Assembly: GCA_016841605.1 (NCBI GenBank)
Contig: JAENYV010000002.1
Span: forward strand, 1 to 64,000
Reading direction: 5' to 3'
DNA: 64,000 nucleotides
From: Dethiobacter alkaliphilus
GTDB lineage: Bacteria; Bacillota; Dethiobacteria; DTU022; UBA8154
The notes below the pieces were generated by a model that saw only the letters and a list, made by a program, of their open reading frames with translations, did not search any database and was not told where the DNA came from. Positions within the stretch are counted from its first letter, which is position 1. Every line of letters begins with the position of its first letter. Shown piece by piece: positions 20,586 to 36,121 of this stretch. Both the position numbers and the translations under genes were made by a program.

Positions 20586-20661
<76 letters not shown>

Positions 20662-20756: not shown

Positions 20757-20987
20757 CTACAGTTTAAAATTTGAATAAAACTTAGCTTTTTCTCTTATTT
20801 CTTTTGTAACCTTCTCTAACTGGCTTATAATCATTTCTCTATGTTTATCTAGATTTTCAAGCTGCTTTTTTAATCTTTTTTGTTTCATTTCAAGAAAATA
20901 TAAATTCTTGGATGGAGTTTTCATTCTACTTCTACTATGCTCAATATCATTAACCTGGTGCTTTGTTTTGCTGTAAGTTTGCGGCAT
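20757..20987 (-). CDS. small basic coiled-coil protein ending the gas-vesicle operon
   Basis: A 76-residue, Lys-rich protein with one long amphipathic helix (about residues 28-70: LEMKQKRLKKQLENLDKHRE and on). ATG 20987 has GGAGTGA seven bases upstream and lies seven bases after the gvpN stop, so it is tightly coupled to gvpN. I do not recognise the family. By position it could fill the place of accessory proteins such as GvpQ/T, which are also small and helical, but no sequence motif proves this. Confidence 0.65.
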   Translation of the reverse strand: MPQTYSKTKHQVNDIEHSRSRMKTPSKNLYFLEMKQKRLKKQLENLDKHREMIISQLEKVTKEIREKAKFYSNFKL

Positions 20988-20994
20988 AATGTCT

Positions 20995-21906
20995 TCACTC
21001 CTTCCAGCTTTTCGATTGTTGTTCCAGTTTAAAACCGAATTTTCTGTCTTGCCTACTTTTTCGAATGTTTCCGTTTTCCCCATCCGCTAATTCCATGCCC
21101 AAAATATCAAAACAAATATCCCTGAAGGTCTGATCTTCCGGATCAATAGGTATGGTATTCTTTTTAACTACCCGTCCTAGCATAATACTACCACGAATAG
21201 TCGGATGATTTTTTTTGCGGCCCAGTTTACGTACAGTAGCAACAATGTCAACTATTTTTTCGGCTTCCTCACGACTAAGCCCGGCTTTTGCCATTGTGAT
21301 ACAAACTTCGGTTTCACGGTCGTAATTTTCCAGATTTATGGTAATCATTCTATCCAGCAGCGCATCCTGACTTTTGTAAACTCCCGCATATTCAACAGGG
21401 TTGCTGGTAAAAATTGCCTTAAAATTAGGATGAATATTTATATAATCCTCACCGTTTTGCCCTGGGGCTTGAATTATTTTTTCTTCTAAAACAGAGAGCA
21501 AGATATTGTTAACCTCGGGCTTGGAACGAGTATATTCATCATATAATAACGTATAGCCGTTTTTACAGGCCGTTACTACTCTCCCGTCAAACCATTCCTG
21601 CTGAACATGCTCCTCATGCTTTTCTACTCTTCGTACGTATTTATCAATAATTAATTTTCTTTTATAACCTATTTCACCTCCGATTAGATCAGTAATTTCA
21701 AGTTCATCACTGCCAAAAATTAACACTGTAGGTTGTTTTAAAAGATCGGCAACCTGTAAAGCCAGTGTAGTCTTCCCGGTTCCGGCAGGTCCTTGAAGGT
21801 GCACGGGAAAACCTGCATGAAGATAAAATAGTATCCTGGTAAGGATATTCTTAATATAGTCAGTTTCAACAAATTTTTCTTCTGTTTTAGCTTGCTGAGA
21901 TCCCAT
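20995..21906 (-). CDS. gvpN: gas vesicle AAA ATPase GvpN
   Basis: GvpN is a MoxR/CbbQ-type AAA+ ATPase needed for gas-vesicle enlargement. Walker A GPAGTGKTT is near residue 44, Walker B LLYDEYTR near 124, sensor FTSNP near 160, and an Arg finger lies in DRMITI. The C-terminal 60 residues are basic and less conserved. I chose ATG 21906 (MGSQQAKTEEK) because AAGGAGG lies nine bases upstream; an upstream in-frame start would add ten residues without a ribosome site. It sits late in the operon, after the third gvpF/L gene. Confidence 0.93.
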   Translation of the reverse strand: MGSQQAKTEEKFVETDYIKNILTRILFYLHAGFPVHLQGPAGTGKTTLALQVADLLKQPTVLIFGSDELEITDLIGGEIGYKRKLIIDKYVRRVEKHEEHVQQEWFDGRVVTACKNGYTLLYDEYTRSKPEVNNILLSVLEEKIIQAPGQNGEDYINIHPNFKAIFTSNPVEYAGVYKSQDALLDRMITINLENYDRETEVCITMAKAGLSREEAEKIVDIVATVRKLGRKKNHPTIRGSIMLGRVVKKNTIPIDPEDQTFRDICFDILGMELADGENGNIRKSRQDRKFGFKLEQQSKSWKE

Positions 21907-22002
21907 CAGCCCAAACCTCCTTAAGATTACGTTCAATCCATTCTATTCTCCAAACAAATAAATGGGAACCTGGGAACCCGTTTTTTACCTGTTTGCTATT
22001 AT

Positions 22003-22821
22003 TCAACAATTATCATTTTGCAAATTAACTACGGTAAAGCTAAATGGCGGCCATGGGCCTGTTATCTCTAAAAACAATCCATCCGGAATGAATCTTTCGT
22101 TTGTTTCATTCATTTTCATAAGAAAACCCTGGACATTTTCTCCGGAAATTAATAAGGAACATTTTAGAACCATTTTACGGCTACTCTCATTGTCATTGCA
22201 ATTTAAACAATCCTCCGGGACAATATCTTCTGCATAATTTTGCAATAGTTTATAAATACTGTTTATTTTTTCTGATAAAGCATTTTCAAAAGCTATTTTT
22301 ACAGTTTCGTTAAATTTCTTTTTTAAAAGGTAGACAGCTCCAGGAGACCTCCCCTGCAGGGCTGATTCCATTTCTTCTCTTTTCTCGTTTTCAACCTGGT
22401 TATAATATGTCTCCTTTTGACAGAACACTTTTACAGTCCATTCTTTTTTACCTTCAACTGCTTCCATTACATGGGATAATTCTTCATACTTTTCGGATAA
22501 CAGCTGCATGATAGGTTTCCCATCGTTAAAAATAGTACAAAATTTTACAGGGGCCGTACTATATTGCTCACTAATCTGCTCTAAAATCAGAGTATGCCTG
22601 CGAGCTTTTTCCTCTACCCAATTAATATTATTATTAATATTACTGTGCAGGCCATCTTCTCCAAATTCCGATAACCAGACTGTGCTTACGGCTGCACCGA
22701 TATCCCTATAACAGATAACCTCAACAGGAAAGGCCGGATCAATTCCTTCACTCAGTAGAAAAGTTTCATTCTTTCTAATTTTACCCAGTATACAGTAAAG
22801 ATAAAGTCCTTGCGCCGGCAT
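22003..22821 (-). CDS. gas vesicle GvpF/GvpL-family protein (copy 3)
   Basis: A 272-residue GvpF/GvpL protein. GLYLYCI opens it, VSTVWLSEFG follows near residue 46, and the family signature APVKFCTIF lies near residue 95 (the V.P.RFGT-type segment). The closing GPWPPFSFTVV matches the 'TGPWPPYNF' C-terminal motif of the family. GvpF is known to contact GvpA and to be a minor wall or assembly component. This is the longest and most diverged of three copies here. It starts one base after the upstream gvpJ ends. Confidence 0.9.
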   Translation of the reverse strand: MPAQGLYLYCILGKIRKNETFLLSEGIDPAFPVEVICYRDIGAAVSTVWLSEFGEDGLHSNINNNINWVEEKARRHTLILEQISEQYSTAPVKFCTIFNDGKPIMQLLSEKYEELSHVMEAVEGKKEWTVKVFCQKETYYNQVENEKREEMESALQGRSPGAVYLLKKKFNETVKIAFENALSEKINSIYKLLQNYAEDIVPEDCLNCNDNESSRKMVLKCSLLISGENVQGFLMKMNETNERFIPDGLFLEITGPWPPFSFTVVNLQNDNC

Positions 22822-22822
22822 T

Positions 22823-23137
22823 CTAAACCTCCTGGCTCAGGCTTTTAAACCTGGACAGCTTTGTTTCAAGCTCCTCAATTCTTTCACCCAACTTTTTATT
22901 AGCCAAATCATCTTCTTTTTTTGCCTGTGAACTTAAGTTGGGATCACTCTGCCACCAGTCAATACCGATTTCCATTGCTTTTTCTACCGAACAGACAACC
23001 AATCTGATTTTTATTGTCAGTAATTCTACATCAGCCAGTGATATTTTTATATCACCTGCTACGACCACACCTTTATCGAGAATTTTCTCCAGTATATCCG
23101 CCAAACTTGATGATTGAGAAGCGCGCTGCACGCTCAA
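22823..23137 (-). CDS. gvpJ: GvpA-family minor gas vesicle protein (GvpJ-type)
   Basis: A 104-residue GvpA paralogue. SSSLADILEKILDKGVVVAGDIKISLADVELLTIKIRLVVCSVEKA aligns over its full core with GvpA, while residues 60-104 form an added charged helical tail typical of GvpJ. GvpJ is a minor component proposed to shape or cap the vesicle cone. TTG 23137 is the start, with AAGGAGG about eight bases upstream. Confidence 0.88.
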   Translation of the reverse strand: MSVQRASQSSSLADILEKILDKGVVVAGDIKISLADVELLTIKIRLVVCSVEKAMEIGIDWWQSDPNLSSQAKKEDDLANKKLGERIEELETKLSRFKSLSQEV

Positions 23138-23160
23138 TCCGATCTCCTCCTTAACGGCAT

Positions 23161-23514
23161 TTACATTAAATCACCCAGCGGTCCTAAATCAAGATTAAGG
23201 TCTTCGTCCTTCAACCCGAATATTCCCTTAAGTTCTTGCATCTTTTCCTCTAATTTTAATAATGCCTCACCAATTCTTTCTATTTCTTCTTCATTGATCG
23301 TTCCTGCTTCCATGTGCCTGATTGCTTCTTTTTCCATAAGTCTTCGTATTAATTCAATAATAGTCAGAACAAGCTTTGCCAGTCCCTGTTCAACGCCCTC
23401 GGGATCTACATTAATCCTTTTGGGAAAATGCTTCTGAGCTTTTTTTATTTCCTCAGCTAATTCTCTTATTTCTTCCTCCGAAAGGTCATCAAGATTAAAT
23501 TTATCATTTAGCAT
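23161..23514 (-). CDS. gvpK: gas vesicle protein GvpK
   Basis: A 117-residue GvpK. The family core is RINVDPEGVEQGLAKLVLTI followed by IRRLMEKEAIRHMEAGTI, and an acidic C-terminal tail closes it. GvpK is an essential but poorly understood assembly protein. Its start overlaps the end of the preceding gvpF/L gene by 11 bases, indicating translational coupling. Confidence 0.93.
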   Translation of the reverse strand: MLNDKFNLDDLSEEEIRELAEEIKKAQKHFPKRINVDPEGVEQGLAKLVLTIIELIRRLMEKEAIRHMEAGTINEEEIERIGEALLKLEEKMQELKGIFGLKDEDLNLDLGPLGDLM

Positions 23515-24250
23515 GGCTATTTTCTTCTTCCGCTAAATTGACGAAGTTATAAGCAGGCCAGGGACCGCTAAATAAGAAGGATAACATTTGATACCTTCTT
23601 TTAAATATTTCCACAGTTGTTTTAAATTCATTTATTTTTCCGACCGGCACGAGATAGGAAGAATTGAGCAGCATTCGATCCGTTGTTAAGCGGCGGATAC
23701 AGCTCTCGGCAGAATAATTGCTAAGGGTATCGAAAATTTCATCAATAAGTAAAGTATTTTTTTCCATAATTTTTCTCTGTTTTTCTTCTTTTTCGAACCT
23801 TTCAAAAAGGTAACGCCTGCCTGGTGTTGCCTGCTGAATGTTGTCATTATCTTTTACATCATTATTTTCCTTTACCGGCGGTTCTTCGCAGGGACTGTCT
23901 TTTAAAATAACTTTGAGACCTAATTCTACCTTGCCATGCACCTTATTAAAATTTTTATAAATCTTATCACTGTAGGTGCTAAGCAGAGATTTAACTTCAT
24001 CAATACCGGTTAAAATTGTTCCGAACCTAACCGGCAAGACGGTGTGTTCACGCATGAAGTATTCCACAACTGTTTCATGACTTAAAACGGTATCGCTTGT
24101 CAATTCAATACTTTGGAATCGGGCTTCACTTACTACGGCAGCAATTTCTTTCCATCGCACAAAATATGGCCGGCAATTGTTTATTCCACTGCAGGGAATA
24201 ATATCAATCCGGGGTTTATCGATTAAGCAGTAAAGATATTGTTTAGACAT
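23504..24250 (-). CDS. gas vesicle GvpF/GvpL-family protein (copy 2)
   Basis: A 248-residue GvpF/L protein with YLYCLID at the start, VLPVRFGTI near residue 83, LGLKVILKD near 120 and the closing GPWPAYNFVNL. ATG 24250 is preferred, with GGAAGGTG about nine bases upstream. A GTG at 24262 would overlap the previous stop as GTGA and is also plausible. The middle region (about 125-150) is a charged linker. Confidence 0.9.
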   Translation of the reverse strand: MSKQYLYCLIDKPRIDIIPCSGINNCRPYFVRWKEIAAVVSEARFQSIELTSDTVLSHETVVEYFMREHTVLPVRFGTILTGIDEVKSLLSTYSDKIYKNFNKVHGKVELGLKVILKDSPCEEPPVKENNDVKDNDNIQQATPGRRYLFERFEKEEKQRKIMEKNTLLIDEIFDTLSNYSAESCIRRLTTDRMLLNSSYLVPVGKINEFKTTVEIFKRRYQMLSFLFSGPWPAYNFVNLAEEENSHAK

Positions 24251-24258
24251 AATTAATT

Positions 24259-24447
24259 TCACCTTCCTTTCCTTGTGCGGTGCAGATTAACGGCGGATGT
24301 TAAAACAAGTCTAACTCCCACATAAATCAGATCCACATCTGCCAGAGAAATAACAAGATCCCCGTGAAGAACGATACCTTTATCAATTAAGCGATCCAGG
24401 ACTTCAAGGAGCGTTATATCCCTGTTCCGGAGGCTTATATCGTTCAA
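24259..24447 (-). CDS. short GvpA-family gas vesicle protein (GvpS/M-type)
   Basis: A 62-residue GvpA paralogue. ITLLEVLDRLIDKGIVLHGD and LADVDLIYVGVRLVLTSA cover both helices and the beta hairpin of the GvpA fold, with almost no C-terminal tail. This fits the short minor GvpM/GvpS class. TTG 24447 overlaps the gvpG stop (TTGA), so translation is coupled. Confidence 0.85.
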   Translation of the reverse strand: MNDISLRNRDITLLEVLDRLIDKGIVLHGDLVISLADVDLIYVGVRLVLTSAVNLHRTRKGR

Positions 24448-24707
24448 TCCGATTCCTCCACTTCATTTTCATTCCAAAGAGCAATATCATATGCACGCTC
24501 TTCTTCATCAGTATTTTCCTCATTTTCTTTTTGTTCATTAATATATCGTAATCGTTGCATCAATTGCGCCTCTTTTTCTGCAAGTTCATCCTCATTTATC
24601 TGGTCTGTTTCATACAAATAGTATAATTTAACAATTTGTTTTTTGATTTGCTCTTCTTCATCAAACTCTTTATTAATATGTTCTTGAAGCTTTTCGACAA
24701 TCCCCAA
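24444..24707 (-). CDS. gvpG: gas vesicle protein GvpG
   Basis: An 87-residue, very acidic, fully helical protein. VEKLQEHINKEFDEEEQIKK and LYETDQINEDELAEKEAQLMQRL match the GvpG pattern (LYE..G.I.E.EFE..E..L..RL). The start is TTG 24707 behind AGAGGT. It lies between gvpF copy 1 and the short GvpA paralogue, the usual F-G neighbourhood. Confidence 0.85.
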   Translation of the reverse strand: MGIVEKLQEHINKEFDEEEQIKKQIVKLYYLYETDQINEDELAEKEAQLMQRLRYINEQKENEENTDEEERAYDIALWNENEVEESD

Positions 24708-24772
24708 AAGACCTCTAAGAGGCCATTCGAAAAAACAATTTCGTCAGCATTTTTTTCCCCCCAGCACAGTTT

Positions 24773-25525
24773 TCAGTTCTCATTCTGATTAACTGAAATT
24801 TTAATAGTTGTAAAATTATAAGGCGGCCATGGCCCTGAATAGATAAAATTGAGACTATCCTGATAAACAGGTAAAAATTTTTCTACATAAAGATTAAAAT
24901 CCGCCACTTTCTTTTTTTCTACTAAATATGCTGCATTAAAGACCATTTTTATATCTTTAATTTCATTTAATCTGGCTGCAGCGGCTTTTGTTGCCAGGTT
25001 TTGATAGATTGCATCAATATAATGGGAACGATTATCCTCAATAATTTTTTGAACCAGTTCGCCCAACTGCATTTTTAAGTGATAGGCCTGTTTCTCTTCT
25101 GCATTATTAATTTTTGTCTTCAATTGATTTACTTCATTAACATCCACCAGCTTTTGAAATGCTTCATCCTTCCAGACAACTTTCAGCCCCATTTCAACCT
25201 TATTATCAATTTTTTTCAAGACATCTTTCGCTGTTGAATATATCTTTTGTAGAAATATCTGTACATCTTTCTTTGATGAAAAAATAGTAGCAAAACTCGC
25301 CGGGATAATACTGTGTTCTTCCATAACTTTAGCTATTACCGCTTGATGAGCGAGAACATTTTTCTTATTCGGATCAAATATTTTTTGTTTAGCATCGCTG
25401 ACCACAGCAGAAAGATCCTTGTAAGAAACGGTGTAAACTTCCGGCGAATTATCGACGCCTTCAATATTAAATCGCTGCTCTCCGGATAAAATGAGACCGT
25501 AAAAATATTTCACCTCTTTAGTCAT
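24773..25525 (-). CDS. gvpF: gas vesicle GvpF/GvpL-family protein (copy 1)
   Basis: A 250-residue GvpF/L protein with YFYGLIL at the start, IIPASFATIF near residue 77, MGLKVVWKD near 112 and the terminal GPWPPYNFTTI. Its ATG overlaps the Cdc48-like gene's stop as ATGA, so the two are translated together. It is the copy followed by gvpG, so it is the best candidate for the orthologue of GvpF. Confidence 0.92.
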   Translation of the reverse strand: MTKEVKYFYGLILSGEQRFNIEGVDNSPEVYTVSYKDLSAVVSDAKQKIFDPNKKNVLAHQAVIAKVMEEHSIIPASFATIFSSKKDVQIFLQKIYSTAKDVLKKIDNKVEMGLKVVWKDEAFQKLVDVNEVNQLKTKINNAEEKQAYHLKMQLGELVQKIIEDNRSHYIDAIYQNLATKAAAARLNEIKDIKMVFNAAYLVEKKKVADFNLYVEKFLPVYQDSLNFIYSGPWPPYNFTTIKISVNQNEN

Positions 25526-27651
25526 TTTTTTACCTCACTGCGTAAAATTTTCTGAAAAGCATTTTCGAAATGAATCCAACGGATAGAGAGTGCACTTCCG
25601 CCCGGCTGCTGCACTTTATTTTGACCAATTGTTTCACGTAAAGCTTCAAAAGCTGCTTCCCGGCATAATGCCTTTATTTCAGATCCTGTCATATTTACTG
25701 TTAACTGAACAATCTTTTCCAGAGATACATCTTTATGGATTGGTTTGCTTTGCATATTAATTTTTATGATCTGTAGACGCTCAGACTGACCCGGCATAGA
25801 TATTTCCAGCAAAAGGTCAAATCGGCCTGGTCTTAGGACCGCAGGATCAACAAGATCCAGGCGGTTGGTAGCTGCCAGGACAAAAACGCCCTGAAGTTGC
25901 ACAAGACCATCTATCTCCGTTAAAAATTGACTGATAAGCCTGTCGGTAACTGCCGAATCAAAACCTGACCCTCTTCTAGGTACCATGGCATCAATTTCAT
26001 CAAAAAAGACGATACACGGAGCTGCTTGTTTTGCTTTACGGAAAATTTCCCGCAAGCCTTTTTCCGATTCACCGACCCATTTAGAAAGAAGAGACGGACC
26101 ATTAACTAAAATAAAATTCAACTGCGACTCACACGCCAATGCCCTGGCCAGCATAGTTTTACCGGTACCCGGCGGACCATGCAATAAAATTCCTTTATAT
26201 GGTTCAATATCATACTCCTGTAAAAAAAATTGGAATTTTAATGGCCATTCGACGGCTTCACGCAAGGTCTGCTTTACCTCTTCCAAACCACCGATAGAAC
26301 TCCACCTTGTCTCTGGAACTTCTACCAAAATTTCTCTTGTCGTTGACGGTTCTATTTCTTTTAGAGCCTGCAGAAAATGCTCCATATTTACCTCTAAGGA
26401 AAAAAGGATTTCTTCAGGTAAAGATCCCGAGGAAAAATCAATTTTTGGGAAAAAAGTTCTCAGACATTTAAGCGCCGCTTCCCGGCAGAGTGCTGCAAGA
26501 TCTGCACCGACAAATCCGTGGGTTATTTTCGCAAGGTAGTTTATATCTACATCGGAAGTAAGGGGCATCCCCCGGGTATGGATTTGTAGAATTTCCAATC
26601 TGGCTGCAACATCAGGGACGCCAATTGTAATTTCCCGGTCAAATCTTCCCGGCCTTCTCAGTGCCGGGTCCAATGCATGCGGAATATTTGTTGCCCCAAT
26701 AATAATAACCTGACCCCGAGATTCAATCCCATCCATTAATGCTAAAAGTTGGGCGACAACTCTTTTTTCCACTTCCCCTGTTACTTCGTCTCGTTTTGGA
26801 GCAATGGCGTCTAATTCATCAAGGAAAATAATACTTGGAGCAGTAGATTTTGCTTTTTCGAAAATTTCCCGCAACTGCGCTTCACTTTCTCCATAATATT
26901 TATGCATAATTTCCGGACCGTTAATATGTAAGAATGCGGCATCGGTCTCATGAGCAACAGCTCGGGCTATGAGTGTTTTGCCTGTTCCCGGAGGGCCGTA
27001 CAATAATACCCCCTTTGGAGCTTCAATACCAAGCCTGGAAAATACTTGAGGATATTTTAACGGCAATTCAACCATTTCACGGATTTTTTGCAGTTCTTTC
27101 CATAATCCTCCTACATCCTCATAAGTTATACGCTCCTGTTTCCTTTCTCCCGATTTACTTGCCATAATCTCTGTTTGCGGAGTAACAATGACAATATAGT
27201 CCGGTTCCACGTTTGTAACCAGACAGTCTTGATTCCCTGTACCAAATAGATTTACGCGAATTTTATCCCCATTAACCAGGGGTAATCCTTCAAGAAAATG
27301 GACAAGATAGCTTACGTTGTTCTCTCCGGCCTCCAAAGGACCGGGCAGGAGCTGCAAGCTAATTCTTACGGCAGCTTTAAGCCTTGCCTTGACAACTCTG
27401 ACCTTTTCTCCAATCCCGGCCCCTGCATTTTCACGTGTTATCCCATCAATTTGTATAACATGCCGCTCACGTTCACCCGGGTGCGAAGGCAATACTTTAG
27501 CAACAGTTCGTCCTTTTCCAATAATTTCTATAACATCCCCTGCTTCAAGATCTAAAACATCAAAGATAGAATGGGAAAGACGCGCTATTCCTTTTCCAAC
27601 ATCTGTTGCTCTAGCCTCAGCGACCCTGAAGAAAAAATCGGCATTTTGCAT
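25522..27651 (-). CDS. Cdc48/VAT-type double-ring AAA+ ATPase in the gas-vesicle operon
   Basis: A 709-residue protein with the full Cdc48 plan. An N domain of about 170 residues carries the double-psi barrel ([14 protein letters not shown]..), followed by D1 with GPPGTGKT near residue 220 and [10 protein letters not shown], and D2 with GPPGTGKT near 490 and [12 protein letters not shown]. Both rings keep the Arg-finger [15 protein letters not shown] segments, so both look active. Cdc48/VAT unfolds or extracts proteins from complexes. Its position between the Get3-like gene and gvpF (ATGA overlap) implies a role in building or remodelling vesicles. Archaea have such proteins as general unfoldases, whereas in bacteria they are sporadic. 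Confidence 0.92.
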
Positions 27652-27671
27652 TAAATAGCCACCTCAGTTTT

Positions 27672-28586
27672 TTAAAAGTATTCAGTAATACAAGATAACA
27701 TGCCCGGACCTTTGACCTCCTGGGGTTGTGCAGAAATAACTATAATTTCCTTTCCCCGGTAATAGTCGGTTATTTCCTTCAAATACTGAGATTGTGCCTC
27801 GTTTTTTTCTTTGCAAAAAGGACAATCAACATTATTGGGATTCATATTATTGATGATGATTCTTTGCACGCTTATCCCGTTAGAAGACAGTTGCTTTCCC
27901 ATGCGTTTACTTTCCTCAATAGCCATTGCAGCCGGGATCATTACCAGAGTAAAATGGCTGGAACCGGGATTTTTAAGAAAAGAATAGACATTTTTAATTA
28001 ATTTTTTCATTTTAAAAAAGATATCTTCTCCGGGCTCAAAAGAATCCTGCGGCAGCAAACCCCTGATCACATCGTAATACTTCCATTTCATTCTTGCGGC
28101 AGCTATAACCCACTCATCCAGTATTTCAGGTAATGTTAACAGGCGCAGTGTATGACCGGTCGGAGCGGTATCCCATATATATACATCAAACTCATGAGAT
28201 TCGATAAAATCCATAATGGTTTTTAGTCCCATAAGTTCATCCAGACCAGGAATGGATAAACTTAAAAGATCATCCAAATCCTCTTCGTCAAGATAAGAAC
28301 ATGTTGCTAATAACTTTTTTATTTCTGCAAAGTACTCTTCACGAAATATATCATAAACATCCTCTGCCTTTATTTCATATAAGAACAGATTAGGAATTTG
28401 CCCTAATGAATTAATACCTTGAGAAAGCCTTATTCCAAAGCTATCTGCTAAAGAATGAGCCGGATCTGTGGAAAAAAGTAAAGATTTTTTTCCATTTTGG
28501 GCAAATTTAATTGCCTGTGCCGCTGCGCATGTTGTCTTTCCCACACCCCCTTTCCCCCCGAATAAAAAAAATTTTATACCTTCCAT
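27672..28586 (-). CDS. ArsA/Get3-family ATPase in the gas-vesicle operon
   Basis: A 304-residue soluble deviant-Walker ATPase. GKGGVGKTT opens it, DPAHSLADSFG is switch I with the catalytic Asp, and DTAPTGHTLRLL is switch II. DCPFCKEK near residue 250 is a CxxC pair like the zinc site at the Get3 dimer interface. There is one ATPase half, unlike two-part ArsA pumps, and no ars genes lie nearby. Get3 shields hydrophobic transmembrane segments, so a chaperone for hydrophobic GvpA-type proteins is inferred. Its start lies within the end of gvpH, with GGAGG seven bases upstream. Confidence 0.9.
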   Translation of the reverse strand: MEGIKFFLFGGKGGVGKTTCAAAQAIKFAQNGKKSLLFSTDPAHSLADSFGIRLSQGINSLGQIPNLFLYEIKAEDVYDIFREEYFAEIKKLLATCSYLDEEDLDDLLSLSIPGLDELMGLKTIMDFIESHEFDVYIWDTAPTGHTLRLLTLPEILDEWVIAAARMKWKYYDVIRGLLPQDSFEPGEDIFFKMKKLIKNVYSFLKNPGSSHFTLVMIPAAMAIEESKRMGKQLSSNGISVQRIIINNMNPNNVDCPFCKEKNEAQSQYLKEITDYYRGKEIIVISAQPQEVKGPGMLSCITEYF

Positions 28587-29062
28587 AGACGCGCCTCCAA
28601 AATATTGTTTTTAAAACTCCAGGTTATTTTGTCATCCTGCACATTTTCCGGAAGGGGTATTTCCTTAAAGAATGGTTTGGCACTTCTTTGCGATTGCACT
28701 ATTAATACATTATTGTTTTCTAATAAAACGACTAAATCTTCCTTTGTTACACCTTGAATCTCAATAATAATAAGAAAATATGCTCCTTCATCAAAAATAT
28801 CAAAAATACGTTCCGGCTTTTTGCCTGTAATAATACGGTTGTTAACAAGCGGCTTCAGATTGTCTGTTTCAGATAGACCCAATTTAATTGAATAATTATA
28901 GCTTCCTTTTAAACCTTTTTCATTACTAGGTCCTAAATTCCCCTCACGGGCAATAGAATCCTTATCCTCTTTGACCATTTCACTTAATAAATCGATAAAG
29001 CTTCCTATACCAAGAAAAAGATCACCAAATTTAAAAGTGTTTTCCCGGTAGTCCTTATCCAT
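28574..29062 (-). CDS. gvpH: GvpH-like Hsp20/alpha-crystallin-related protein
   Basis: A 162-residue protein. The N-terminal half is variable and charged. Residues about 85-160 form an alpha-crystallin-like domain: IFDIFDEGAYFLIIIEIQGV, EDLVVLLENNNVLIV and a closing strand ILEARLWKV. GvpH in halophilic archaea is also an Hsp20-type protein. A small-heat-shock role in keeping GvpA soluble is inferred. The first two-thirds has no clear motif. It overlaps the Get3-like gene by 13 bases. Confidence 0.8.
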   Translation of the reverse strand: MDKDYRENTFKFGDLFLGIGSFIDLLSEMVKEDKDSIAREGNLGPSNEKGLKGSYNYSIKLGLSETDNLKPLVNNRIITGKKPERIFDIFDEGAYFLIIIEIQGVTKEDLVVLLENNNVLIVQSQRSAKPFFKEIPLPENVQDDKITWSFKNNILEARLWKV

Positions 29063-29097
29063 ATCTGAAACCTCACCCTCTCTCGTTCACTGATAAG

Positions 29098-29352
29098 TTA
29101 TATTGTCCCTCTCTCTTTTAATTCTTTACGTTCAAAAGAAATAACTTCAAGATCCTGGTTTAATATTACATCATAAACTCCAAGCAAGTCCCTCTTGGCC
29201 CGTTTTCGCATGTACTCATCTTCTTCAATGATTTCTGCTTTTATCTGCCAGCCATTGCCATCCGGAGATATTTCTATTATATGTGCTTCCCGATTATAAA
29301 AATTATGGAAAAAAGCCACAACCTTTGATATTACAGCTTCCAAATTAGACAC
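29098..29352 (-). CDS. gvpO: gas vesicle protein GvpO
   Basis: An 84-residue GvpO-family protein: GWQIKAEIIEEDEYMRKRAK, LLGVYDVILNQDLEVISFERK and a basic end match the family pattern W..EiiE...P....D.La.YEV.lD..Gel..y.R. GvpO is an accessory protein needed for vesicle formation in several lineages. GTG 29352 is the start, with AAGGAGG about nine bases upstream. It is the first accessory gene after the gvpA array. Confidence 0.85.
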   Translation of the reverse strand: MSNLEAVISKVVAFFHNFYNREAHIIEISPDGNGWQIKAEIIEEDEYMRKRAKRDLLGVYDVILNQDLEVISFERKELKERGTI

Positions 29353-29441: not shown

Positions 29442-29681
29442 TTAAACGGCAGCTGCAGAACGTGGATGATGATGCCCCTTATCTTTCTCCGTTAAACCTA
29501 CTGCTTCTGCATACTCTAGCCAGGTCGCAACACTGGCAATTACCACGCGAGCCTCTACGGCAAGTAGTTCTATCCCTACCAATGACACAACAACATATGC
29601 ATCTATGACAATTCCTTTATCAAGCACCCTGTCAAGAACCTCAGCTAAGCTGGAAGATTGTAAGGCAGTTTTCACAGCCAT
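29442..29681 (-). CDS. gvpA: major gas vesicle structural protein GvpA (copy 4 of array)
   Basis: A 79-residue GvpA, the hydrophobic rib protein of the gas-vesicle wall. The core is [20 protein letters not shown] and [20 protein letters not shown], then [11 protein letters not shown] and a His-rich tail. It differs from the other copies only at the tail ([11 protein letters not shown]). At DNA level it shares synonymous changes with copy 3 (for example CCACGCG, CACCCTG in the minus-strand complement). It is the last of the four and lies just before the 14-bp hairpin. Confidence 0.97.
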
Positions 29682-29732
29682 GCTTTTCCCTCCTTTCCGC
29701 TACAATAACTATCAATTCTTATCTCATAGTAT

Positions 29733-29975
29733 TTAGACTGCTTCTGCAGAACGGGGACGATGATGATGCCCCTTATCTTTCTCCGTTAAACCTACTGCTT
29801 CTGCATACTCTAGCCAGGTCGCAACACTGGCAATTACCACGCGAGCCTCTACGGCAAGTAGTTCTATCCCTACCAATGACACAACAACATATGCATCTAT
29901 GACAATTCCTTTATCAAGCACCCTGTCAAGAACCTCAGCTAAGCTGGAAGATTGCAATGCAGTTTTCACTGCCAT
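29733..29975 (-). CDS. gvpA: major gas vesicle structural protein GvpA (copy 3 of array)
   Basis: An 80-residue GvpA, identical in protein to copy 2 (tail [12 protein letters not shown]). ATG 29975 is preferred because a GGAGGGGAAAGC ribosome site precedes it; an upstream in-frame start would add eight residues. Its silent-site pattern groups with copy 4, not with copy 2, even though the protein matches copy 2. Confidence 0.97.
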
Positions 29976-30027
29976 GCTTTCCCCTCCTTTCCACAGCAAT
30001 AACTATCAATTCTTATCTCAATAGTAT

Positions 30028-30270
30028 TTAAACTGCTTCTGCAGAACGGGGACGATGATGATGCCCTTTATCTTTCTCCGTTAAACCTACTGCTTCAGCA
30101 TACTCTAGCCAGGTCGCAACACTGGCAATTACTACGCGAGCCTCTACGGCAAGTAGCTCTATTCCTACCAATGACACAACGACATATGCGTCTATGACAA
30201 TTCCTTTATCAAGCACTCTGTCAAGAACCTCAGCTAAACTGGAAGATTGTAATGCAGTTTTCACTGCCAT
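30028..30270 (-). CDS. gvpA: major gas vesicle structural protein GvpA (copy 2 of array)
   Basis: An 80-residue GvpA with the standard core and tail [12 protein letters not shown]. Its silent sites group with copy 1. A spacer of 52 bases with a conserved ribosome site (GGAGGGG) separates it from copy 1. Confidence 0.97.
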
Positions 30271-30322
30271 GCTTTCCCCTCCTTTCCGCTACAATAACTA
30301 TCAATTCCAATCTTAATAGTAT

Positions 30323-30562
30323 TTAAAAAGCTTCTGCAGGACGGGGACGATGATGGCCTTTATCTTTCTCCGTTAAACCTACGGCTTCAGCATACTCTAG
30401 CCAGGTCGCAACACTGGCAATTACTACGCGAGCCTCTACGGCAAGTAGCTCTATTCCTACCAATGACACAACGACATATGCGTCTATGACAATTCCTTTA
30501 TCAAGCACTCTGTCAAGAACCTCAGCTAAACTGGAAGATTGTAATGCAGTTTTTATAGCCAT
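30323..30562 (-). CDS. gvpA: major gas vesicle structural protein GvpA (copy 1 of array)
   Basis: A 79-residue GvpA, the first in the array, behind GAGGAGGGAG and the array promoter. It starts MAIKTAL instead of MAVKTAL and has a slightly different tail ([11 protein letters not shown]). High GvpA output is expected, because this protein makes nearly the whole wall. Confidence 0.97.
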
Positions 30563-30582
30563 TTATCTCCCTCCTCTTATTT

Positions 30583-30612
30583 ATAATATGAGCGCTTAAA
30601 ATAAGTGTGCAA
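30583..30612 (-). promoter_or_regulatory. promoter of the gvpA array
   Basis: On the minus strand, TTGCAC (30607-30612) and TATTAT (30583-30588) are separated by 18 bases, about 25 bases before gvpA copy 1. It follows a strong terminator, so the array should start its own transcript here. Confidence 0.6.
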
Positions 30613-30652
30613 TCTTTACTTGCGTCAGACCTAAAAAGTTTAAAGACATCAT
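30596..30652 (-). pseudogene. possible remnant of a GvpA-like gene
   Basis: A short minus-strand frame reads MMSLNFLGLTQVKIAHLF then stop. This resembles SLLGIDLLGIRQFKIVTT of the diverged GvpA-like protein encoded just upstream (30875-31093). The DNA also keeps a partial match around TTTTAGGT and AAATTG. The match is short and overlaps the array promoter, so it could be chance. Confidence 0.25.
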
Positions 30653-30712
30653 GCAAAAAATGATGAAAATTAAGGGAAGCCACAAGGGCATTACTCCGAT
30701 AAAAGCAATTCG

Positions 30713-30757
30713 AAAAAAAAGCCTAATCCCGCTAATATATATTAACGGGATTAGGCT
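30713..30757 (-). terminator. strong intrinsic terminator after the GvpA-like gene
   Basis: An 11-bp stem GCCTAATCCCG/CGGGATTAGGC is followed on the minus strand by eight T residues. It isolates the diverged GvpA-like gene from the gvpA array. Confidence 0.93.
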
Positions 30758-30874
30758 AATGTTGAGATAATATCTGATTCTACAGCTGATTGTGGCAAAA
30801 TTTGCCGCTTCCGGTGACAGGCTGTGAGATTAAAGAAATAATCTGTCCATTATGAGGATAATGATCGTTTCATT

Positions 30875-31093
30875 CTACCAAAATATACCTCCACAACAGA
30901 GCCACGTATCTAGCGTTGTTACAATTTTGAACTGACGTATACCTAAAAGATCAATGCCAAGAAGAGAAATATCTGTGGAAGAAGCAGTTACAATACCTCT
31001 TTCCAACATCTCAATTTGATGGCCTATTCCAGGAACTTTTGCAGCATCCGGGTAACTGACGTTTGTTGCTTCGGGGTAATTTGGACCGGTCAT
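30875..31093 (-). CDS. diverged GvpA-like protein upstream of the gvpA array
   Basis: A 72-residue protein. Its C-terminal half aligns with GvpA: QIEMLERGIVTASS matches [14 protein letters not shown], and ISLLGIDLLGIRQFKIVTTL with DTWL matches [24 protein letters not shown]. The N terminus is replaced by a Pro/Tyr-rich segment (MTGPNYPEATNVSYPDAAKV), and the tail ends in CCGGIFW with two adjacent Cys. The ribosome site GGGGGAAAG is strong. It has its own terminator. A minor wall protein, nucleator or inhibitor of assembly are all possible; a decaying paralogue is the alternative. Confidence 0.75.
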   Translation of the reverse strand: MTGPNYPEATNVSYPDAAKVPGIGHQIEMLERGIVTASSTDISLLGIDLLGIRQFKIVTTLDTWLCCGGIFW

Positions 31094-31116
31094 TCTTTCT
31101 TTCCCCCTTTATATAA

Positions 31117-31136
31117 AGAGTACTATAATATACTCT
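31117..31136 (-). promoter_or_regulatory. inverted repeat near the promoter of the GvpA-like gene
   Basis: AGAGTA and TACTCT flank an 8-base AT-rich centre that itself contains a -10-like sequence (TATTAT on the minus strand). The site lies about 24 bases before ATG 31093. It could be an operator overlapping the -10 region. The -35 region is weak, as expected for a regulated promoter. Confidence 0.4.
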
Positions 31137-31246
31137 ATCATTTTCATATTTGTTACTGTTACAGAACTGATTATAGATAATAGGTAACATTATTTACTTT
31201 AAATAACTTATTACTGTATTTTGACTTAAAATACGATAATTTTTAT

Positions 31247-33007
31247 TTATAATTTATCTTCGATCAGCTCTTTATCATAAGCTTGGACTAGGTCGCTACG
31301 GGTTATCATCCCAATTACAGCTTTTGGGTTTTCAGGGGATACTACCGGCAAATGTCCTATATCGTTCTTATTTAATAACCTGAAAACATCATCAAGGGTG
31401 TTTTCAGGGAAAGTATAAACGAGTTTATTTGACATTAATTTGGGAACAGGCAGTTCCATAATTCCTTCAGCAGGAACTCCTCTAATATCTTGAAGAGTAA
31501 CAATACCCACTAATTCATCCTTTTCATTCAAAACCGGAAAACCATTATGTTTGCTGTTGTGCATAATTTTTATAACATTACCGATCTTATCATTTTGTCT
31601 AACAAATTCAACAGGAGTTGCCATAACATCTTTAACTCTTATTCGTTTCATGATATTGATATCTCGTCCGGACTCTAAATCAATACCGCGACGAAGTAAT
31701 TTTATCGTATAAATAGAACCTTTGTTCAAATACGAATAAATTAAAGAACTAAACACAACCGCAAGCATTAAAGGTAAGATTATTTTATAATCCCTTGTCA
31801 TTTCAAAAATTATTAAAACTGCTGCAATAGGTGCTTTAGTCGTCCCGGCAACTACAGCACCCATTCCGGCAATAGCATACGCCGCAGGATGACCTACTAT
31901 ATTAGGAAACAATTGTTGCATAAAAATACCAAATGCTCCTCCTAATGTTGAACCCATAAATAATGAAGGAGCAAATATTCCTCCGGAATGACCGGACCCT
32001 AAAGTAATAGAAGTAGCAATAATTTTTACAAAAACCAAGAGAAATAAAGTAACCATCAATAATTGACCATTAAAAGTTGCCTCAATGGTTTCATAACCAA
32101 CACCCAATATTTGAGGAAATTTTAATCCTATCAAACCAATAATTAATCCACCAAAAATCGGCTTTGACCATTCCGGAAATATATGCCATCCATTCCATAT
32201 ATCCTCAGTTTTATAAAGCATTTTTACAAAAAGAACAGATATAAATGCGGCGAAAACACCCAAAAGTATATATAAGATTAGCTCTAGAGGGTGATTTAAA
32301 GGGTATGCTTTTACGACAAAAGCAGGTATATCGCCAACAAAAACTCGCGCAATTGCTGAAGCTGTTACAGAAGAAACAACAATGGGTATAAAAGTTGTAG
32401 AAGTAAATTTATTTAAAATAACCTCTTGAGCAAAAATTACTCCGGCAAGAGGAGCATTAAATGTAGCTGCGATTCCGGCTGCTGCACCACAGCCAACACA
32501 GGTTTTAATTTTATCTTCGTTAAGTTTTAACCATTGTGCGGTAACAGATCCAATACCTGAACCCATCTGTATAATGGGGCCCTCTCTACCCACTGAAGCT
32601 CCGGCACCTATTGATGATGCTGATGCTATTGCTTTTACAAATATTACCCGCATCCGCATACGTCCACCCCTAAGTGCTGCTGCTTCCATTACTTCAGGTA
32701 CTCCATGCCCTTTCGCTTCTCTGGCCAAAAAAAATGTTAACGGACCTACTATTATTCCGGCTAAAGCAGGTACAAAAATTTTCCACCAGTTATTGGGGAG
32801 AAAACCGAAAATTGATTCACCTAATCCATTAAAACCGAGACTAGACCAGCCTATCATCAAGCGAAAAAGAACAGCAAATAGTCCGCCGAAAAGGCCAATA
32901 ATAAGAGATAAAGCAATAATTAACCATGCATCATAATCAATTTTCAAATGCAAATTAGTTACTACATTTTTGTAATAGTTTTTAAATCTGTCTGTAATTT
33001 TAAACAT
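31247..33007 (-). CDS. ClC-family chloride channel/transporter with CBS pair
   Basis: A 586-residue membrane protein with the ClC fold over about 430 residues and two CBS domains at the C terminus (VKDVMATPVEFV and PKLMSNKLVYTF). GREGP near residue 140 supplies the external gating Glu, and GGIFAPSL is the third anion-site motif. The first motif is GHGVPE, so the usual central Ser is His. At the position of the internal proton-path Glu of E. coli ClC (FIIEEMR) it reads FAQEVIL, apparently Val, as in many channels. The ATG has GGAG directly before it, which is unusually close. Confidence 0.93.
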   Translation of the reverse strand: MFKITDRFKNYYKNVVTNLHLKIDYDAWLIIALSLIIGLFGGLFAVLFRLMIGWSSLGFNGLGESIFGFLPNNWWKIFVPALAGIIVGPLTFFLAREAKGHGVPEVMEAAALRGGRMRMRVIFVKAIASASSIGAGASVGREGPIIQMGSGIGSVTAQWLKLNEDKIKTCVGCGAAAGIAATFNAPLAGVIFAQEVILNKFTSTTFIPIVVSSVTASAIARVFVGDIPAFVVKAYPLNHPLELILYILLGVFAAFISVLFVKMLYKTEDIWNGWHIFPEWSKPIFGGLIIGLIGLKFPQILGVGYETIEATFNGQLLMVTLFLLVFVKIIATSITLGSGHSGGIFAPSLFMGSTLGGAFGIFMQQLFPNIVGHPAAYAIAGMGAVVAGTTKAPIAAVLIIFEMTRDYKIILPLMLAVVFSSLIYSYLNKGSIYTIKLLRRGIDLESGRDINIMKRIRVKDVMATPVEFVRQNDKIGNVIKIMHNSKHNGFPVLNEKDELVGIVTLQDIRGVPAEGIMELPVPKLMSNKLVYTFPENTLDDVFRLLNKNDIGHLPVVSPENPKAVIGMITRSDLVQAYDKELIEDKL

Positions 33008-35275: not shown

Positions 35276-36121
35276 CTATTCCTTTAGGGGAGGAATCCGG
35301 CTTCCAAAATTAACTCGCTGAAAATCTGTTCTGATTTTTTCCAGCAAACTTTCAATTGGTTCGCCACATCCGGGGCACTTTTCCATTTGTCGTCCGACAA
35401 TTTCGCCACATCTACATTTAAAAACATACTTCGGTAAATATTTTTTATTTTTATACTCAGCTTGGGAAAAGGACTTTTCCGGTTTACTAACCTTTTTTTC
35501 AATCCGATCATTTTCAGTTATTTGCGGTACTTGCTTAATTTCCCGGTTATTGCCGAAAACAAGTGGAACTTCTTCCGGTTCTGTTTCAACCAAATAAGTA
35601 TAAATTGTCGTTGTAGATACTTCGGCATGCCCCAGTGCTTTCTGGACAAGACGAATATTTTTCGTTTCACGGTAAAGATCCGCGGCAAAGGTATGACGAA
35701 GAGAATGGGGATAGATATTTTTTTTAATCCCTGCTTTTTTAGAAAGCCTTTTTACCATTTCTCTGATATAACGTCCATCTATCTGTCCACCTTTTAAAGT
35801 ACTAAAAAGGTATTCACCTTGCGGGGCAATATCACTCCATTTTCTGAGAAGTTCAAGGGTTTTCTCTCCCACCCAGACAGTGCGGTTTTTTTCGCTATCC
35901 TCTTTCCTGATGACTATCTGTCCTTTTTCAAGATCAATATGCGCCGGTTGTAAATTTAGAAGTTCTGAAAGGGTAATCCCCGTATCAAGCATCAGTCGCA
36001 GGATGCACAGGTTTCGCAGTCCGGTCGGAGCTTTGGGGTTCGGTTGACATAAAAGGGCTTCTCGCTCCTCCCCGTTGAGAATATCCGGTAGTTTCCTTGT
36101 TTTTTTCCCCTCCCCGCTCAT
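35276..36121 (-). CDS. tyrosine-recombinase-like protein with C-terminal zinc ribbon and missing Arg
   Basis: A 281-residue protein holding only the catalytic domain of the phage-integrase family. HSLRHTFA (His-x-x-Arg), LGH and the nucleophile in TTTIYTYL are present. At the first catalytic Arg the usual TG(L/I)R.SEL reads TGITLSEL, so Arg is replaced by Thr. The N-terminal core-binding domain is almost absent. From about residue 230 there is a Cys4 zinc ribbon (CRCGEIVGRQMEKCPGCGE). Lack of Arg predicts little or no recombination, so it may bind DNA or serve regulation. No attachment sites or phage genes lie nearby. AGGAGGAT precedes ATG 36121. Confidence 0.85.
   Translation of the reverse strand: MSGEGKKTRKLPDILNGEEREALLCQPNPKAPTGLRNLCILRLMLDTGITLSELLNLQPAHIDLEKGQIVIRKEDSEKNRTVWVGEKTLELLRKWSDIAPQGEYLFSTLKGGQIDGRYIREMVKRLSKKAGIKKNIYPHSLRHTFAADLYRETKNIRLVQKALGHAEVSTTTIYTYLVETEPEEVPLVFGNNREIKQVPQITENDRIEKKVSKPEKSFSQAEYKNKKYLPKYVFKCRCGEIVGRQMEKCPGCGEPIESLLEKIRTDFQRVNFGSRIPPLKE

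Follow-up and report, generated by a model that had tools for sequence, protein, structure and literature searches.

A conserved GvpA-related protein with a polar face at the putative gas-facing positions, encoded upstream of a gvpA array in Dethiobacter alkaliphilus

We analysed a 64,000-nucleotide stretch of Dethiobacter alkaliphilus DNA (the window; its genome is designated G000) and found that the 72-residue ORF at 30875-31093 on the minus strand, here named orf72, is a real, intact and conserved gene, as seen from the reading of the ORF, alignment to the gas-vesicle protein GvpA, its relatives and the selection acting on them. The protein keeps the sequence of the GvpA hairpin core, and at the positions where GvpA would line the gas space with aliphatic side chains it and its relatives carry a conserved polar patch, the strongest point in the analysis and one that the original prediction had not noticed. 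Our tentative reading, which falls somewhat short of being probable, takes orf72 for a conserved accessory protein of gas vesicles, descended from GvpA and no longer gas-lining, that would act as a seed, a cap or a growth stop.

The orf72 gene and its relatives

The coordinates, the length of 72 residues, the Pro/Tyr-rich N terminus and the CCGGIFW end given in the original prediction all agreed with our reading of the ORF. The N-terminal Tyr-Pro-acidic tail (residues 1-22; 31028-31093, minus strand) holds two Tyr-Pro-acidic repeats, YPEA and YPDA; alignments placed it in three of the four family members and showed it to be absent from the copy of genome G439. It is followed by the GvpA-like hairpin and the start of helix 2 (residues 29-65; 30899-31009, minus strand), delimited by alignment to GvpA and by comparison of the family profile with the PDB. 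The CCGGIFW end (30878-30898, minus strand) stands in the family alignment in place of the remainder of GvpA helix 2, and the Cys at residue 67 within it was invariant in 4/4 members. The gene upstream of orf72 encodes a ClC-type channel with CBS domains.

The homology search with the 72 residues, proposed originally as a check, returned both the GvpA homology and relatives in two genomes. With the single protein as query, 19 of 99 related genomes gave any match at E ≤ 10, and beyond the own genome only two fell below 1e-20, those in G014 (62% identity) and G040 (60%). Profile searches of the own class (97 genomes) gave matches in 4 genomes and family members in 3, the own genome included; a phylum sample (398 genomes, matches in 11) newly added G439, with a 58-residue form lacking the Tyr-Pro tail. 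No member besides that of G439 was found by profile in the 29 genomes of its class, and none was added from five further classes, namely those of G098 (1 genome), G443 (245), G366 (82), G355 (299) and G218 (4). The remaining profile matches (E about 1e-6 to 5e-4) mostly covered residues 29-69 or less, and those sequences that were read proved to be ordinary GvpA cores. In a genome contig collection the family alignment gave two matches, taken as G014 and G040, and the single protein gave no relative; no relative was found among viral contigs, and none among plasmids at E ≤ 1.

The four-member alignment held 24 invariant columns. Its motifs were, in the N-terminal part of three members, Y-P-E followed by Y-x-E/D, and in the core L-x-x-G-[IV]-V-T-x-[NST]-S-T, L-L-G-[IL]-D, G-I-R-Q-[FL]-K and T-T-L-[DE]-T-W-L-x-C. 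Nonsynonymous divergence (dN) was 0.31-0.41 in all six family pairs, and dS was 1.09 for G000/G014 and saturated in the other five; judged by these rates the family is under purifying selection in 6/6 pairs. All four genomes with the family carry gvp genes or gvp relics. In a hand tally over about 988 genomes (G000-G987), searched with match thresholds that differed between searches, the family was present in 4/34 genomes with gvp genes or relics vs 0 of about 954 others (Fisher, p 1.2e-6), the 34 being 33 genomes with a match to a GvpA-type profile or PF00741 plus G014, the one genome in which relics were sought. The p value was 0.001 when three genomes of one class were counted once, and 1.3e-4 with G014 scored as gvp-negative, a rescoring that allows for the gene having been found there first and the relics afterwards.

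Relation to GvpA and the gas-facing side of the hairpin

Residues 19-55 of the window's own GvpA aligned without a gap to orf72 residues 29-65 (13/37 identical, 25/37 similar, E 8e-8), with DTWL opposite ATWL, as had been noticed from the letters of this DNA when the second half was said to align with GvpA. Solved structures searched with the family profile (PDB, E ≤ 10) yielded two entries and no more, 7r1c at E 2.1e-5 and 8gbs at E 1.6e-4, each of them a GvpA, and the NCBIfam models matching orf72 at E ≤ 1 were three, again all GvpA. On these matches orf72 and the GvpA hairpin core are, as far as sequence can speak, of common descent. The family cut-offs were not reached: Pfam PF00741 (Gas_vesicle) scored orf72 at 17 bits (E 0.0066, residues 30-53 only), below its 25-bit gathering cut-off, and gave any match at E ≤ 10 in three of the four family members, and the NCBIfam GvpA model scored 22 bits, below a cut-off of 100 bits. 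The description "GvpA-like" therefore holds by alignment and fails by family cut-off. The GvpJ and GvpM models gave no match to orf72 (NCBIfam, E ≤ 1); among the other proteins scanned, two GvpA copies and an S-type protein matched both.

Structure prediction added little. AlphaFold given 4 sequences returned a model with pLDDT 48, pTM 0.20 and no hairpin; given 28 sequences including GvpA, J and S cores, it returned a low-confidence model (pLDDT 63, pTM 0.36), leaning on the GvpA rows, with strands at 34-45 and 48-60, a helix at 61-71 and an extra strand at 25-30 in the place of helix 1. With a low-confidence orf72 model as query, Foldseek found nothing at E ≤ 0.001 (best E 0.35), the best VIA-align matches (Z 4.2, PURA and WHY1) were treated as uninformative, and no GvpA structure was among the matches listed for either program.

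In GvpA, as described in excerpts of PMC9994262, aliphatic side chains face the gas, Glu43-Arg31-Glu38 join neighbouring subunits, the N terminus ties a rib to the next rib, and the turn residues Val35/Ile37 seal the seam. Excerpts of PMC10185304 add that the wall-forming parts tolerate few mutations and that polymerisation is driven mainly by contacts of the backbone. We took the gas-facing strand positions to be 26, 28, 30, 32, 34, 42, 44, 46 and 48 (GvpA numbering, through the ungapped match to 7r1c), a set deduced from the charged Arg31 and Glu43 sitting on the other side and, since it rests on alignment, sensitive to a shift of strand register. Mean hydropathy at these aligned positions was 0.49-0.82 in the four family members vs 3.46-4.01 in 30 GvpA cores, and 3.47-3.81 in J/S-type cores (n=16). 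At least two polar residues among the central positions 28, 30, 44 and 46 were found in 4/4 family members, 0/30 GvpA cores and 0/16 J/S-type cores; at these positions N/S/T, T, Q and K form a conserved polar patch in place of conserved aliphatics, and position 26 is T in 4/4 members (the polar residues of orf72 itself, in its own numbering, are T36, S38, T40, Q54 and K56). The aliphatic gas-facing side by which a hairpin would be counted as GvpA is thus not found in the family at the positions inferred by alignment, and in its polar face the family, as aligned, is unlike GvpJ and GvpS, whose 16 cores stay aliphatic.

The changes extend beyond this face. Position 43 is R in 4/4 family members vs E/D in 30/30 GvpA cores, position 45 is F/L in 4/4 vs R in 30/30, position 57 is C in 4/4 vs Y in 30/30, and position 29 is S in the family vs an aromatic residue in 30/30. 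With R at 43, V/D/T at 31 and D at 38, the Glu43-Arg31-Glu38 charge network of GvpA was not found in the family. The S-L-A-E-V start of GvpA helix 1 is missing from orf72, in line with the earlier remark that the first helix is replaced, and the turn is retained (L35, G36, I/L37, D38). Because the gas face is polar and helix 1 differs from that of GvpA, as do the salt-bridge partners, orf72 would be very unlikely to serve as an ordinary wall subunit; the reported intolerance of the wall parts to mutation and dominance of backbone contacts lead to the same view, and leave docking through the strand backbone as a possible behaviour.

Orf72 has in common with GvpA a hairpin sequence that aligns ungapped, a G-I-D/E turn and a helix 2 beginning with T-W-L, and differs from it in the polar gas face, in E43->R and R45->F/L, in the replaced helix 1 and N-terminal rib linker, in a shortened helix 2 that ends with Cys, and in scoring under the family cut-offs. 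GvpJ, GvpM and GvpS are likewise diverged GvpA relatives in gvp clusters, without E43 and mostly without R31, but theirs is an aliphatic gas face with mostly an A-D/G-V turn, as against the polar face and G-I-D turn of orf72, which moreover lies outside the gvpA-gvpN array and behind its own terminator. We know of no GvpA relative in which the gas face is lost and the hairpin kept. Serratia GvpA2/GvpA3 and B. megaterium GvpA1/GvpA2 are also extra GvpA relatives within one cluster, but are described in excerpts of PMC9501494 and PMC9994262 as M/J equivalents or as almost identical wall proteins; the sequence comparison with orf72 covered the PDB chains 7r1c and 8gbs. The original prediction knew of no named Gvp with such a layout; in keeping with this, none was found in Pfam, in NCBIfam or, in a limited literature search, in the excerpts covered of PMC9994262, PMC9501494, PMC10185304, PMC11445434 and PMC10903477.

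The gvp cluster and the signals around orf72

Orf72 lies upstream of the gvpA array in the window. The first gvpA copy, with its own upstream region, is at 30323-30562, and three more near-identical copies follow within 29442-30270 (29442-29681, 29733-29975 and 30028-30270), all on the minus strand and taken from the ORF list and Pfam; the four tandem copies (29442-30562) are identical at 167-177 of 180 bases, a similarity which suggests recent duplication or gene conversion. The rest of the cluster (20757-29352, minus strand; Pfam, NCBIfam and synteny) consists of gvpO, Hsp20, ArsA/Get3-type, CDC48-type AAA, gvpF, gvpG, gvpS-type, gvpF, gvpK, gvpJ-type, gvpF and gvpN genes and a 108-residue ORF. 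The gvpG gene fell just under its Pfam cut-off; the names gvpK and gvpN, like the letters S and J, were assigned provisionally by synteny and not by a family cut-off. The cluster looks complete, reaching gvpN at 20995 and then the 108-residue ORF at 20757. The latter (20757-21083) gave no Pfam match, and resembles a G014 sequence (59%) and, weakly, one from G040 (29%). The gvp region is flanked by tRNA-Trp (20586-20661) and a phage-type integrase (35276-36121); in the rest of the window no tRNA stretch of more than 13 bases recurs exactly. A second gvp locus is present in the own genome (contig C28, 49890-57000, locus L092), with GvpF/L, J-type, weakly K-like, S-type and CDC48-type genes and no clear GvpA-type gene.

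The gene has its own ribosome-binding site, as predicted: AAAGGGGGAAAG with its spacer was read directly at 31094-31110 (minus strand). Further upstream, the promoter scan marked 31120-31156 (minus strand), which contains a promoter-like pair, GTAACA-18-TATATT (9/12 matches, 31156-31127), followed by TATAGTAC (31127-31120). Promoter-like sites in the orf72 region numbered 6 vs 3.6 in shuffles, so that the hexamers alone are not above chance. TATAGTAC was found at -34, -32 and -34 from the ATG in G000, G014 and G040 and was absent in G439; an 8-mer shared across three 100-base upstream stretches arose in 17/2000 dinucleotide shuffles. A sigma-70-like pair stands before TATAGTAC in G000 and G014 (GTCACA-17-TATTAT in the latter), and the promoter scan found none upstream of the G040 gene. 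Because TATAGTAC is over-represented in the whole window (5 occurrences, at 22556, 31120, 33559, 41133 and 60793, vs 0.58 expected), it may be a general promoter feature there. TCATATTATA, which we took as a sporulation-type sigma-factor pattern, was seen upstream of gvpA in G000, G012 and G040; a sporulation-type gvpA promoter was dropped from consideration, the one-mismatch pattern being not rarer than chance in the window.

Between orf72 and gvpA the terminator scan found an intrinsic terminator (30713-30757, minus strand) made of a 17-bp stem (hairpin 30757-30720), beginning 117 bases past the orf72 stop, and a T run; it was the one terminator-like site in 30300-31300, vs 0.3 expected. Orf72 is separated from gvpA in the window by this strong terminator, and the strong terminator and the own signals claimed in the original prediction are supported. 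In G439 a 15-bp terminator 127 bases past the stop passed the scan. Between the G040 gene and gvpN, some 25 bases past the stop, an inverted repeat of 10 bp was accepted only on the opposite strand; it fails on the gene's own strand because too few T remain, three T having been counted into the stem. The scan showed a 5-bp stem only behind the G014 gene. Accordingly the claim of a conserved terminator is weakened, and separate transcription of the family gene is clear only in G000 and G439.

The setting of the gene differs among genomes. In G040 it is followed on its own strand by gvpN and gvpA, after which the contig ends, and no GvpF/L match was found in that genome, owing either to the contig end or to absence of the gene. 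In G439 it is on contig C3 and the gvp cluster on C48. In G014 an intact family gene is upstream of scrambled gvp relics (ArsA, CDC48-type AAA and gvpN pieces, one of them inverted), and this genome gave no match to PF00741 (GvpA family) or to PF06386 (GvpF/L). Within the relics (L031, 7976-9835) the inverted CDC48 piece is situated between gvpN and CDC48 fragments. The rearrangement could be real decay or could represent an artefact of assembly, G014 being a metagenome assembly in which repeated gvpA copies may simply be unassembled; the relics have stayed open and similar in sequence, a piece of 169 residues, for example, matching at 83%. The gvp cluster of G012 has the same gene order as the window, with 62-88% identity per matched gene, and orf72 is absent from it. 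A CAP-like ORF is upstream of gvpA in G012, its domain being assigned by sequence reading and confirmed only for an ORF of G014.

Possible roles of orf72

The recurrence of the polar swap in three other bacteria indicates that orf72 is probably a helper or stop piece, not wall material. The kept strand backbone would let it dock beside GvpA or on chaperones holding GvpA; lacking the gas face, the Glu43/Arg31 pair and the N terminus that links ribs, it would be unable to extend a gas-tight rib. The place of action of such a protein would then be the end of a chain, or a step that precedes assembly, and it would serve as seed, cap or growth stop in an amount that its own promoter sets. At the seam or polarity-reversal point a clash of helix 2 is reported (excerpts of PMC9994262), and one may speculate that the kept turn and shortened helix 2 suit that place. 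Its patchy presence, with G012 lacking it, suggests that orf72 is a modulator rather than a core part; going by the G012 cluster, not every such cluster would require it. A wider proposal is that the family represents an inverted GvpA chemistry, its conserved polar face serving either a separately controlled rib stop or seed, or a water-facing assembly that outlives gas vesicles; we regard this as possible and somewhat doubtful.

Orf72 might instead be a soluble decoy or regulator, a mimic of GvpA that occupies GvpF/L-type chaperones or GvpN and tunes delivery of GvpA to the ribs without touching the shell. Excerpts of PMC9501494 report that GvpA is bound by GvpF, and its relatives J and M by GvpL, and that a surplus of single Gvps can lower gas vesicles; the polar face would allow solubility, the gene is set apart from the gvpA array, and absence from the G012 cluster fits a modulator. 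However, most of helix 1, which is reported in excerpts of PMC11445434 to be enough to bind GvpF in Halobacterium, has been replaced in orf72, and we consider a decoy rather doubtful.

It is unlikely, in our estimate, that a gvpA duplicate was put to a job outside gas vesicles altogether. The intact G014 copy, with TATAGTAC upstream in a genome that gave no GvpA-family or GvpF/L match, fits such a role, and in G439 the gene and the gvp cluster are on different contigs; yet every genome that yielded the family has gvp genes or relics, and the G014 evidence is weak because the relics are still open and the assembly is metagenomic, with gvpA repeats that were perhaps not assembled. As the gvp loss there looks recent, survival of orf72 says little. 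Less probable still is a minor wall protein of the cone tips. GvpJ and GvpS, as GvpA relatives in bicones, have been proposed to sit there (excerpts of PMC11445434 and PMC10903477), but the aliphatic gas face kept in 16/16 J/S-type cores is lost in orf72, J-type and S-type genes are already in the cluster, and NCBIfam at E ≤ 1 gave GvpA models only; the identification of orf72 as GvpJ, GvpM or GvpS was rejected on the lack of an NCBIfam GvpJ/GvpM match and on the polar gas face. A decaying gvpA copy without function is scarcely credible: low GvpA similarity and the sub-threshold Pfam match are set against open frames in four genomes, the invariant columns, dN well below dS in 6/6 pairs and the conserved polar patch, so that neutral decay was rejected on the dN/dS pairs and the patch, and the lack of conservation and neutral decay named at the outset as fatal to the prediction did not appear, three other genomes having orf72.

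If orf72 is an accessory protein of the seed, cap or stop type, a GvpA relative that keeps the hairpin without the gas face would be a ready probe for chain-end control, and possibly a size regulator for engineered gas vesicles. Should it work without gas vesicles, it would be, to our knowledge, the first known case of the GvpA scaffold in another use. The detailed mechanisms of gas-vesicle nucleation and elongation are described as still elusive in excerpts of PMC10903477. Apart from orf72, the genes for the Hsp20-like protein, the ArsA/Get3-type ATPase and the CDC48-type double AAA protein (25522-29062) within the gvp cluster recur in G012 and G098, and G003 too has one CDC48-type and two ArsA-type genes; a possible chaperone-unfoldase module tied to gas-vesicle assembly may merit separate study.
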